From positions 1 to 64,000 of IMG/VR virus record IMGVR_UViG_3300047287_000420: 64,000 nucleotides of DNA; one strand, given 5' to 3'. Shown here one piece after another: positions 2,132 through 21,058 of the stretch (position 1 is its first letter; each line of letters begins with the position of its first letter). This DNA comes from a virus. Below the pieces are notes generated by a model. It was not told where the DNA came from, did not search any database, and saw nothing but the letters and a program-made list of their open reading frames with translations. The translations under genes and the position numbers were made by a program.

Positions 2132-3654
2132 CAGAACTCCATCTCGAAATTACCGCGTCTCTGCAAGTAACACACTAGGTGTGTATAAGCATCCAACAAG
2201 TCATCGTGAGAAGTAGCTCCAATATTTATCAGTTGATCAAACAAAGCGTCAAACTTACGGAAGCGATTGAATATAACTTTTTTATTTTCAAGCAAACCGA
2301 GCGTACCCCGGAAGCGAGCAATTTTATCTCCCCTAAACCCTTTCACTTCGTGGATGTGGAGGTTGCCCAGTCCCCATTCGTTCAGCATAACCCGTCTCAA
2401 GTCAGCAGCCAGTGAAGCTTGATACGCGACTGACTCAACAACCAAAGTACAAGTGGAGTAAGTAGGAAAGTACTTGCCGTCGTTGTCTTCCTGCAGAATT
2501 CCCCACTCAACCAACATTTTGCATAACAGATCTATCTTCTCAAGGTTTCCGATAGAGCGCACCTGATGCGCATCGATAATATAGTACTTATCTTTTAACC
2601 TACCTCCTAAAACAAAAGCCGTATAGTCTGACGTTTCGTTCTTGCTAGCAGATAAGTCGATGCCCACGGCCAGACTATCGAACTCAGTAACAACATCACC
2701 TTTTACTAAGAGGTCTGGCGAAAGGACCAGATCTGATGTCATCACAGGTTGTTGCTGATACTGGAACGCAAAAGCAACAGGATCGAGTTCTTTTTGACCT
2801 AATAAGTAGTCAACGCTCCACTGTTCAGGCCAATAGCTGACTGGTTCGCCGTCATCGTCATAAGTAAGAGCTTCCTGCTGTACCTGTTTCCAACCTTTAT
2901 CAGGAACAAACATCGTCTTATGGATATCTAACGGGTGGAATCGAGTACCCAGACAGATTGCTCGACCACCTTCAAAAATAATCGGAGCGATAACGGAGCT
3001 CCAGTTGTTGTTCATCTCCTCTCTAATAGTAGGGTTTTTAATATCCGTACTAGACTTGATAGGGTCATCTACAATCACAAGGTGCGCACGCTTAGAGGTA
3101 ATAGAGCCTCGAAGTCCTGCTGCCCTTAGAGTGAATTCTTCATCGCCCACACGGCTGATCCCGGCGTAATCAAAATCGATACTCCAGCCGATATCCGACT
3201 GCATACCCGACCGAAGCTGAACCTTCGGAAAGATCTTCTTGTAGGTAGACGAATCGATAATCTGTTTAATGATTCGGCTCTTGGGGATAGCCGTGGCGAT
3301 GTTGTAAGAACAGTAAATAATCTGAAGCGGTAAGCCTGCTGTCGTATGCCTACCTATGATCCAAGCGGTGAACATATTGAGCACAGTACTTTTAGCACTG
3401 CCTCGTGGAGCCAGAATATCAAGATTCGGTCCCGCGATATCGATCAAGTAACGATTGCTGTCTCCCGTTATCAGGTGCTTGTGCCACTCCAGCATATGAG
3501 CTGCTGGGGCTTTATCCATAATTGTACAGAACGTATGAAAATCATCAGCAGCTCTCATAAAGATATTATCTATAGTAGAGCTCTCAGAATCAACTGCTTT
3601 AGCAGCACGCAATTTAAGTGCACGGCGATATGCAAATGTCTCTCTACTTGGCAT
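2131..3654 (-). CDS. terL: Terminase large subunit (TerL)
   Basis: 507 aa, normal TerL length. ATPase domain: Walker A APRGSAKST at residues 82-90 and Walker B HLVIVDDPI at ~191-199, with DD in place of the common DE. Nuclease domain (RNase H fold): acidic residues in AVGIDLSASKN (D333), LVVESVAYQ (E407) and SHDDLLDAY (D484/D485/D488). It pumps DNA into proheads and makes the headful or site cut. No obvious small subunit is adjacent; the 176-aa protein at 6043-6573 is one possibility without motif support. Divergent from the glycosyltransferase at 3703 across a 48-bp gap. Confidence 0.96.
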   Translation of the reverse strand: MPSRETFAYRRALKLRAAKAVDSESSTIDNIFMRAADDFHTFCTIMDKAPAAHMLEWHKHLITGDSNRYLIDIAGPNLDILAPRGSAKSTVLNMFTAWIIGRHTTAGLPLQIIYCSYNIATAIPKSRIIKQIIDSSTYKKIFPKVQLRSGMQSDIGWSIDFDYAGISRVGDEEFTLRAAGLRGSITSKRAHLVIVDDPIKSSTDIKNPTIREEMNNNWSSVIAPIIFEGGRAICLGTRFHPLDIHKTMFVPDKGWKQVQQEALTYDDDGEPVSYWPEQWSVDYLLGQKELDPVAFAFQYQQQPVMTSDLVLSPDLLVKGDVVTEFDSLAVGIDLSASKNETSDYTAFVLGGRLKDKYYIIDAHQVRSIGNLEKIDLLCKMLVEWGILQEDNDGKYFPTYSTCTLVVESVAYQASLAADLRRVMLNEWGLGNLHIHEVKGFRGDKIARFRGTLGLLENKKVIFNRFRKFDALFDQLINIGATSHDDLLDAYTHLVCYLQRRGNFEMEF

Positions 3655-19158: not shown

Positions 19159-19240
19159 TCGATTGCACGAACCTTTCTACCAGCTTAGGTGTCTTTAAAA
19201 GGTTTAAACCGCGTCCACGTGGCGCCGAAAATTTTTTTGA

Positions 19241-19313
19241 TGGGGGTCGCGAGGATCGAACTCGCCTGAAATCGATTATGAGTCGACCGCTTTCACCAGA
19301 TAGCTAGACCCCC
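19241..19313 (-). tRNA. tRNA-Met or tRNA-Ile2 (CAU anticodon)
   Basis: 73 nt on the complement. Perfect acceptor stem GGGGGTC/GACCCCC, anticodon stem GTCGA/TCGAT with loop CTCATAA (anticodon CAU), T-arm GCGAG-TTCGATC-CTCGC. The G1-C72 pair excludes an initiator tRNA. CAU can be elongator Met or, after lysidine modification, Ile reading AUA; identity cannot be settled by eye. No encoded CCA. Confidence 0.93.
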
Positions 19314-19322
19314 AGCCCTGCC

Positions 19323-19353: not shown

Positions 19354-19472
19354 TTTACCCCGCCGAAAACCATAGGTATCTCGCCCGCGTCGTCGCGTAA
19401 GCTCTCTATTTAAAAAAAAGAGCGGAAATTGCGGGCAGCATGATGCCATGATGGCACAGTATAACACTGCCG

Positions 19473-19501
19473 TTGTTGTATCTTACTCTATTGTTTATTG
19501 T
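19473..19501 (+). promoter_or_regulatory. Weak promoter candidate for the structured RNA
   Basis: TTGTTG (19473-19478), 17-bp spacer, TATTGT (19496-19501). Weak match, but it is the best arrangement in the AT-rich 19470-19560 stretch before the structured region and would start RNA near 19508. Confidence 0.25.
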
Positions 19502-19521
19502 TTACATACAGCACTGTTTAA

Positions 19522-19538
19522 TTCTTTCTACGGTCATC
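19522..19538 (+). repeat. Direct repeat copy 1 (TTCTTTCTACGGTCATC)
   Basis: 17-base sequence, repeated exactly at 20429-20445; its last 13 bases recur at 23871-23883. Copy 1 sits just before the structured RNA, in what would be its 5' leader. Confidence 0.85.
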
Positions 19539-19559
19539 AGGGGGTAGTTCTTTATTCTT

Positions 19560-20610
19560 ATTAAGATCTGCTCACCGTGTGCTACCATCGCGCGCGTCGC
19601 GGGCGCGGTTCCATCTCTTGCGCACTGAGCGCACACAGTGTGCCAATCCGCAATCCGGTTGCAAGGGGTTGACCTAGTGGCCTCGGCGTGGTGATGATGG
19701 GCACAAGCCGATCGGGAAGCCGAGAGGCGGAACCTGGACAATCCGACAGCACCACGCCAGCCCCGGCGCGATCCGGCGGTTGATCAGCCAAGGCCTGCGA
19801 ACCTACGCGTTCCCCCTTGTGCCGATCGCCAACCCGTCACACCATCGTTCCGACAGGCTCCGCATCATGCTGTAGGATTCCAGCAACGGCCCGAGAGGGT
19901 CGACGACATAGGACAGCCGTCCGTCAAGACTGACGCCCACCAGGGTGAGAGCAGACCCATAAGGGATCGCACCTGGTAGTAGTGGCTGGCAGTTAGGCGG
20001 GCGGGGACCGATACCCTCAGATGCTAGTAATCAGAGGCGGGGTGTGCCCACAAGCTCTCGCGAGCCTAAGCCCCTTGCCCCCACTAGAATCTCCCGCTCA
20101 CCCGACGATGGCCTGCGAGTCACGTTAAGGGAGGCCTGGAGCTAGTGGCTTGCCCGAGAGGCCCTTGGTCCCATGCTCAAAGTATTTATCTTTGGCAGGT
20201 TGTCGATAGTTAAGTCCCCAGACTTGCGAGCTTGTGACTAACGCAGTAGCCCAGTGAGAATCAGATTCCCGGCTATTTGTATCGTTGCAACCTTTATAGA
20301 TCTGGTGTGGCCTGACGCAATAGCCCGTCCTACCCAGCTCGGGCACAATTTAACTTTCTCAAACGCAGGGATGCTGTGTCCAGAGTATCTGTCCCTCACA
20401 CAGGTACGCTGGACAAAGCCCGTAGGAGTTCTTTCTACGGTCATCGTCTCTGCAGCCAAGCCCGCAAGCCTTTAATTTTGCAGGTTTGGCACAATTTAAT
20501 AGCTTTTGTGCGCATAATGTGCGCCATAACTGACTTTAATTTGAGGTCAGTTTCCCGATTTCACTCTTTAGTGGGGCCTGGTATTACCTACCGGGCTCTA
20601 CTTAAAGGTG
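19560..20610 (+). ncRNA. Candidate giant structured noncoding RNA (GOLLD/ROOL-like in size and context)
   Basis: About 1.05 kb with no convincing gene on either strand, GC-richer than its flanks, next to a tRNA. Complementary pairs: 19587-19593/19603-19609; 19685-19693/19750-19758 (9 bp); 19700-19707/19815-19822 (8 bp, crossing the previous stem: a pseudoknot); 19887-19892/19897-19902 closed by a GAGA tetraloop; 20081-20087/20142-20148; 20177-20182/20190-20195; 20212-20216/20221-20225; 20245-20251/20271-20277; 20377-20383/20409-20415 enclosing 20385-20392/20400-20407; 20420-20425/20435-20440; 20528-20534/20546-20552; 20576-20582/20590-20596. Six of these stems contain a G-T pair in the plus sense, which would be A-C mismatches in the complement, so the RNA is read from the plus strand. 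GOLLD and ROOL RNAs are large phage-associated RNAs, GOLLD often beside tRNAs. Membership is inference; ends are approximate. Confidence 0.72.
20429..20445 (+). repeat. Direct repeat copy 2 (TTCTTTCTACGGTCATC)
   Basis: Exact 17-base copy of 19522-19538, 907 bp downstream. Here CTACGG (20435-20440) can pair with CCGTAG (20420-20425) to make a 6-bp hairpin; CCGTAG could pair equally with copy 1. Confidence 0.85.
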
Positions 20611-20692
20611 GGATTCTTTGTATTCGTGATCACATTTGATCATGGTGCAAAGTTTCGTTTCTGCGTTTGTGTGTGACGCTCTCACTGTGTGT

Positions 20693-20722
20693 TACGATGC
20701 ACACTGAGGGCCTCTACCCTCA
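20693..20722 (+). promoter_or_regulatory. Weak -10 element followed by a perfect 6-bp hairpin
   Basis: TACGAT (20693-20698) could be a -10 element with only a poor -35 upstream. Six bases later TGAGGG/CCCTCA (20705-20710 with 20717-20722, loop CCTCTA) forms a hairpin followed by CCTTTTAG. It may be the 5' hairpin of the early transcript or an attenuator or terminator for RNA coming from upstream. Confidence 0.4.
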
Positions 20723-20752: not shown

Positions 20753-21058
20753 ATGACTGAACTGACAATTAAGACCAACAATCAGCCACGCCCGCTGTTC
20801 AATCCCTGCGAACTTTCGCAGTCTCAGCGTGCCAAACTGCGCCACCAATTTGATTGGATGAGCGATGAAGAGTTTGACCACAACTGTTCATTCTTTCTCT
20901 ATCGCGGTTGGTATTACAACCTCTCTGACTTCCTGACTAACACTAACCCTGACGGTCCGTTTAAGGGTTGGCACGGTATCGCTAGCGATTCTTACTTCAG
21001 CGGAACGCTAGTCAAACTGTGCGGCAACGATGTTGTCGTCGGTCGCTATTGCTGCTGA
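20753..21058 (+). CDS. Conserved-type cyanophage hypothetical protein
   Basis: 101 aa. Sequence SQRAKLRHQFDWMSDEEFDH, FFLYRGWYYNLSDFL and GWHGIASDSYFSGTLVKLCG resembles a small phage family of unknown function that I recall with the same RGWYYNLSDF and SDSYFSG landmarks. First gene of the early plus-strand cluster. Confidence 0.72.
   Translation: MTELTIKTNNQPRPLFNPCELSQSQRAKLRHQFDWMSDEEFDHNCSFFLYRGWYYNLSDFLTNTNPDGPFKGWHGIASDSYFSGTLVKLCGNDVVVGRYCC

Follow-up and report, generated by a model that had tools for sequence, protein, structure and literature searches.

The window analysed here comprises 64 kb of a virus record of 84,285 bases. According to the ORF list, genes to the left of the region of interest run mostly leftward and those to its right rightward, and at this boundary ~1.4 kb without a credible gene separate a tRNA-Met (19239–19314, minus strand) from a gene of 101 amino acids at 20753. 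The region is GC-rich, at 54–60% across 19501–20500 versus ~46% in the flanks. The terminase (2134–3654, minus strand) shares 53% identity with its counterpart in S-EIV1 (KJ410740), a Synechococcus phage from fresh water and, by this protein, the nearest isolated phage, with every other match far behind; on this basis the host is probably a cyanobacterium. Genes that we take, by eye, to encode DNA polymerase A, dCTP deaminase and ThyX have counterparts in the S-EIV1 annotation, and because of the S-EIV1-like terminase together with these shared counterparts the host is probably a picocyanobacterium. The boundary contains the following features (positions are those of the window).

19239–19314, minus strand: tRNA-Met (CAT), adjoining the region only in the window's own subfamily.
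19379–19438, no strand assigned: conserved island at the divergent gene boundary, TCTCGCC..GTCG..TA(T)nTAAAAAAAARG..ATTGCGGGCAG, from blastn and a 31-member consensus.
19590–20670, plus strand: putative extent of the large structured noncoding RNA, from conserved blocks, group folds, compensatory changes and strand asymmetry.
19636–19674, plus strand: 5′ hairpin GTGTGCCAATC-[GCAAT/GTTGC]-GGGTTGACC, with 3 compensatory pairs in 19650–19654/19658–19662.
19666–19744, plus strand: helix of GGGTTGACC (19666–19674) with GGACAATCC (19736–19744), with the recurrent motif ACCTnGACAATC.
19917–20004, plus strand: central domain, CCGTCCGTC (19917–19925) with GGCGGGCGG (19996–20004).
19928–19932/19990–19994 and 19934–19938/19943–19947, plus strand: inner stems of the central domain.
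20036–20148, plus strand: central-domain stems 20036–20047/20070–20079, 20054–20057/20062–20065, 20081–20087/20142–20148 and 20104–20112/20119–20126.
20366–20454, plus strand: three-way junction of closing stem GCAGGGATG/CATCGTCTCTGC and hairpins H1 and H2 (20421–20441).
20377–20415, plus strand: hairpin H1, TGTCCAG A GTATCTGT ... ACAGGTAC G CTGGACA, the best conserved element.
20503–20651, plus strand: 3′ domain with hairpins 20508–20524 and 20528–20552 and a long hairpin 20556–20616, showing double changes.
20617–20651, plus strand: GTGATCA/TGATCAT hairpin of the 3′ domain.
20676–20722, plus strand: terminal hairpin element GCTCTC..GAGGGC, whose 3′ arm can alternatively pair with CCCTCA downstream.
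20753–21058, plus strand: first downstream gene, 101 aa with no assigned function, the anchor in the search for homologous loci.

Each of the six mechanical ORFs of the region (69–87 aa) is interrupted by stops or frameshifts in two or more of three relatives (L045, L003, L042), and when a conserved reading frame through the region was sought among the relatives, none survived. A protein-coding reading was therefore rejected, and the earlier statement that 19560–20610 holds no plausible gene stands. Homologues, whose collection the original prediction had proposed, were found in at least 40 IMG/VR contigs, the relatives being dozens of other uncultured viruses; these contigs have a noncoding region of 0.8–1.3 kb at the equivalent position, between leftward genes and the rightward block, with identity ranging from 94% to short islands only. 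Nineteen loci came to light when the 101-aa protein encoded downstream was used as the query, and conserved RNA islands were found in those holding sufficient upstream DNA; further contigs were obtained through three unrelated exact patterns (H1, the A-tract island and the terminal hairpin). The whole region was matched at 93% in L004 and L006 and at ~73–86% in L003, and the others had only islands in common with it: the A-tract island lying upstream, H1, the 3′ end and, in the 5′ part, the GTGTGCCAATC block. The gene following the region differs in some relatives from the window's 101-aa gene. A DNA search of an annotated phage genome collection with the RNA of the window, L008 and L055 gave no meaningful match, and therefore no isolate there carries the RNA at that search sensitivity.

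The family divides into the window's subfamily (L003, L004, L037, L042, L045), a second large group (L008, L010–L016, L026, L027, L030, L035, L036, L038–L040, L043, L053, L071, L072, L090, L093, L094 and others) and outliers (L009, L046, L049, L055–L058, L061–L064). Pairwise similarity is patchy, with one half of the region 95% identical and the other barely alignable (e.g., window versus L037), and domains have therefore been exchanged between members. Across the family the 3′ portion tends to be conserved and the 5′ portion variable. The A-tract island marks nearly all members; it was matched by blastn in L003, L004, L008, L010–L012, L015 and L016, its consensus was drawn over 31 members and its pattern was used in finding more. 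It is possibly a promoter or upstream control DNA. Around 35–110 nt after the island, alternating purine-pyrimidine tracts of 34–90 nt, CG/TG-rich and Z-DNA-like, occur in L003, L010, L016, L037, L042, L045, L050 and L062, and other members have a shorter GCGCGTGCGC block there.

Conserved sequence starts upstream of the structured region, at 19379, and we infer the 5′ end of the RNA at ~19590–19611, at a GC-rich GnGnnCGnTTC block. Its 3′ limit is uncertain, and the RNA may share a transcript with the downstream gene. The compound hairpin lies exactly at 20377–20415, as originally described (TGTCCAG, one A/G mismatch and GTATCTGT paired with ACAGGTAC..CTGGACA). The structured region extends 3′ to ~20720, beyond the original limit of 20610, and probably starts at ~19590. 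The sequence of the 5′ hairpin at 19636–19674 is common to the other subfamily, with the stem altered in several members, and this local hairpin competes with the helix 19666–19674/19736–19744, which has no broken cells in 5 subfamily-A members and whose motif ACCTnGACAATC is conserved over 31 members. The two inner stems of the central domain have 3 compensatory pairs each among 5 members (unpaired cells 5/25 for 19928–19932/19990–19994 and 3/25 for 19934–19938/19943–19947), and the stems within 20036–20148 have 2–3 each with 0–3 unpaired cells. The other subfamily closes the junction with GTTAGTTACAG/CTGTAACTAAC. An exact 17-nt direct repeat, TTCTTTCTACGGTCATC, lies at 19522–19538 and again 907 bases further on, at 20429–20445, where it makes up the 3′ arm of H2; similar (C)CTATCATC words occur in relatives. 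Paired att sites were rejected as an explanation of the repeat, one copy being the H2 arm and the upstream copy being absent from L045, L003 and L042.

The dense short complementary segments on which the original prediction leaned fall within chance: seven-mer inverted repeats number 7 versus 4.2 ± 2.7 in shuffles, and 57 of 300 shuffles have as many or more. Counting of inverted repeats was dropped as evidence of structure. Taken by itself this chance-level count would suit decayed coding or functionless chance sequence, a reading to which we give almost no credence, since place, motifs and pairing are conserved across diverged phages and the compensatory changes described below refute it. 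Folding energy was compared with dinucleotide shuffles. On the plus strand the 3′ two thirds of the region have a folding energy far below that of shuffles (z ~ −5 to −7), with z of −5.2 (plus) and −2.1 (minus) for 19850–20610 and of −7.1 and −2.5 for the final 760 nt, up to the terminal hairpin; eleven control segments of the window, on both strands, average −1.2 ± 1.3 with a minimum of −3.6. The 5′ part alone (19620–20380) is no better than shuffles (z −1.2). A further comparison of the two strands gives z of −4.2 on the plus versus −2.3 on the minus strand. In 16 of 18 members the plus strand gives the better fold (mean z −6.9 versus −4.8; the minus strand scores better in L016 and L053), and consensus energies favour it in all four groups (e.g., −588 versus −498). 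G-U cells in the window's group stand at 324 versus 164, and in the junction helices G-U exceed A-C by 63 to 22. The assignment to the plus strand in the original prediction is borne out by the energies and by this excess of G-U over A-C.

Sequence-based alignments gave group consensus folds with many compensatory pairs. In the junction domain (17 members), 94.4% of cells are paired, both sides have changed in 14 of 41 pairs, and double-change cells number 70, as against 23 ± 4 in shuffles and 2–12 with the partner slid. The window's 3′ domain (55 pairs, 9 members) has 89.4% of cells paired and double changes in 18 of the 55 pairs, versus 10.8 ± 2.0 in shuffles, none of 500 of which reach this number, and 3–8 in slid controls. 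The clearest single case is the tip of H2, where L010 and L011, ~98% identical, differ by four simultaneous compensatory pair changes. A covariance model of the junction domain, R1, recovers L050, L054, L138, L065, L122 and L095 at 45–81 bits, none of which served to train it and several of which lack the H1 consensus; on the window it scores 35.3 bits (E 8e-5), mostly via H1, itself the element used in finding relatives. The expected covariation is therefore present as double changes well above shuffles, and it is weaker under a phylogeny-aware null: in a test of our own, run on two alignments, only a single pair per alignment reaches E<0.05, the power being too low with so few sequences that group into clades.

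H1 behaves differently from these helices. It is near-invariant in sequence with no compensatory change, and therefore its sequence, besides its fold, seems to matter; it looks sequence-recognised. Of 201 Cyanobiaceae genomes, 27 (L168–L194) contain a stricter H1 pattern, GTACCTGTSTYTANNGCAGGTAC, exactly once each, with 0 control matches, the host hairpin being GCGTACCTGTGTCTACAGCAGGTACGC. In the eight genomes inspected, the hairpin is intergenic and lies near one or more of the following, as identified by eye: an apcF-like gene, a gene for a J-domain protein and one for a RumA-like methyltransferase. A TGTCCA/TGGACA pair commonly comes after it, and GAGAC/GTCTC words surround it. In four of six single-contig genomes it sits at 0.44–0.51 of the contig. 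An Rfam scan of ten of these host loci returned no match, and R1 gave no strong match in the 201 genomes (best 31 bits). This single-copy occurrence in host-family genomes suggests that the phage RNA displays a host-like recognition hairpin. As further observations, viral contigs that otherwise differ and lack the large RNA (L073–L091) also have the H1 core, often followed by TGGACAC words, and the L008 phage record has a second H1-like hairpin (L159, G002:C1:59643-59721) ~10 kb from the large RNA.

These properties of H1 raise the question of whether the region acts as DNA, as a replication origin or recombination region whose hairpins work as DNA and in which H1 is a recombination or protein-binding palindrome. 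The divergent gene boundary, the A-tract island and GATC palindromes would fit such an element, as would the invariant H1 arms that lack compensatory change and the H1-like palindromes that are single-copy in host-family genomes and stand alone in other phage contigs. Neither the plus-strand bias in folding energy and in G-U over A-C nor the compensatory changes in H2, the closing stem and the 3′ hairpins would be expected of it, and we regard it as quite improbable for the region as a whole. It could be true of H1 alone, which could be a DNA palindrome merely located in the region.

Another alternative is that the region serves in cis as a giant leader (5′ UTR) of the rightward block, with multiple domains for attenuation or translational control of the downstream mRNA alone. 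The region always precedes the first rightward gene on the same strand, no strong terminator was found between it and the downstream gene, and the terminal hairpin has two mutually exclusive pairings, its GAGGGA arm pairing either upstream or downstream with a compensatory triple in L061/L063, which can form a terminator-like alternative. However, the terminal hairpin, which has the form GATTCTCTCC-[variable stem]-TGAGGGATTC with TCCCTC after it, recurs in 71 viral contigs, most of which lack the large RNA, and precedes many other cyanophage-type genes, often 45–75 nt before an ORF and sometimes twice per contig (window; L094–L141); hairpin and RNA are therefore separable. The downstream gene varies between relatives, and leaders known to us need far less than ~1 kb of swapped domains. 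We consider a purely cis-acting leader unlikely, although by no means negligible. The terminal hairpin itself is a separate and widespread element, a candidate cyanophage attenuator or leader, and probably belongs to the downstream mRNA leader rather than to the large RNA.

GOLLD RNAs are often near tRNAs in phage genomes, and the adjacent tRNA-Met had been counted among the signs of a GOLLD or ROOL RNA. The tRNA is present where stated, but it adjoins the region only in the window, L003 and L004 and lies 4–8 kb off in L008, L012, L013, L015 and L016; confined to the window's subfamily, the adjacency lends no clear support to a GOLLD link, and the tRNA neighbour appears from this comparison to be incidental. 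Against all 4227 Rfam models, cmscan reported only tRNAs above cutoff in the window. No match of the region to GOLLD, ROOL, OLE, HEARO or any other Rfam family was found in the window at E≤5, GOLLD, ROOL, OLE and HEARO were absent from four homologues (L010, L012, L014, L016) at E≤10, and eight homologues gave no Rfam match to the large RNA at the gathering cutoff. Candidate families at permissive thresholds were discarded, these yielding tRNAs and chance matches only. The RNA is absent from Rfam, and no description of it was found in open-access publications.

GOLLD, from phages and prophages, forms a 14-mer nanocage, ROOL is likewise a phage and prophage nanocage RNA, and both form cages in vitro and have no known function; GOLLD has a conserved 3′ part and a variable 5′ part (PMC12286853). 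The present RNA resembles GOLLD in size class, phage origin, elaborate fold, 3′ conservation with a variable 5′ part and, in the window's subfamily, a nearby tRNA-Met, and it resembles ROOL as a large ornate phage RNA of unknown function. The conserved-3′/variable-5′ likeness is a general similarity, not homology. In contrast to GOLLD, it has no sequence or covariance-model match, its tRNA adjacency is not family-wide and it heads a rightward block, and it has no covariance-model match to ROOL either. The model searches lower the likelihood of a divergent GOLLD or ROOL RNA, which we now hold to be very improbable; by these comparisons the RNA is like both in kind (large, ornate, phage-borne) and assignable to neither. 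Membership, divergent relative and new class had all been proposed, and the last fits best, given the lack of an Rfam match. The cyanophage RNAs manA, wcaG and PhotoRC-II are much smaller. They too are structured RNAs reported in cyanophages, manA and wcaG as 5′-UTR elements of metabolic genes and PhotoRC-II in association with psbA-type genes (PMC2864571), and the large RNA has no Rfam match. In S-EIV1, the boundary that looks equivalent spans only 517 bp, and its genome has no match to R1; a copy of the RNA was not detected there.

By comparison, then, the element occupies the same genomic place in many phages, folds on the plus strand, has helices with compensatory changes, and lacks both a reading frame and an Rfam match. 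We are highly confident, on these comparative grounds, that it is a real structured noncoding RNA family of the plus strand, and the central claim of the original prediction, a giant structured noncoding RNA on that strand, is strongly supported by the homologues and their compensatory changes. We propose that in S-EIV1-like cyanophages a large modular RNA of ~0.8–1.2 kb stands first in the rightward block (probably early genes) and is transcribed in that direction, with transcription starting near 19590 and the transcript either entering the downstream genes or ending, or being processed, at the terminal hairpin. Peripheral domains would be swapped between phages while the H1 junction stays constant. 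Less surely, and by analogy with GOLLD and ROOL, the RNA might act in trans as a folded scaffold during infection, and H1 might dock, or act as a decoy for, a factor that recognises the similar single-copy picocyanobacterial hairpin as well. A trans-acting folded RNA that presents H1 to a host factor, much as has been proposed for GOLLD/ROOL scaffolds, is in our judgement the leading reading, though a tentative one. More speculative, and in our view rather doubtful, is a new giant phage RNA class with exchangeable domains around a junction and a hairpin taken from a single-copy host element, or common to both, serving as a takeover decoy.

To our knowledge, very few giant structured phage RNAs are known, namely GOLLD and ROOL, both of unknown function. 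Another, apparently unrelated family in aquatic phages suggests that such RNAs have originated repeatedly. Its many diverged, domain-swapped members make a good covariation data set, and the H1 hairpin, common to host-family genomes, provides a testable handle on function that is lacking for GOLLD and ROOL.
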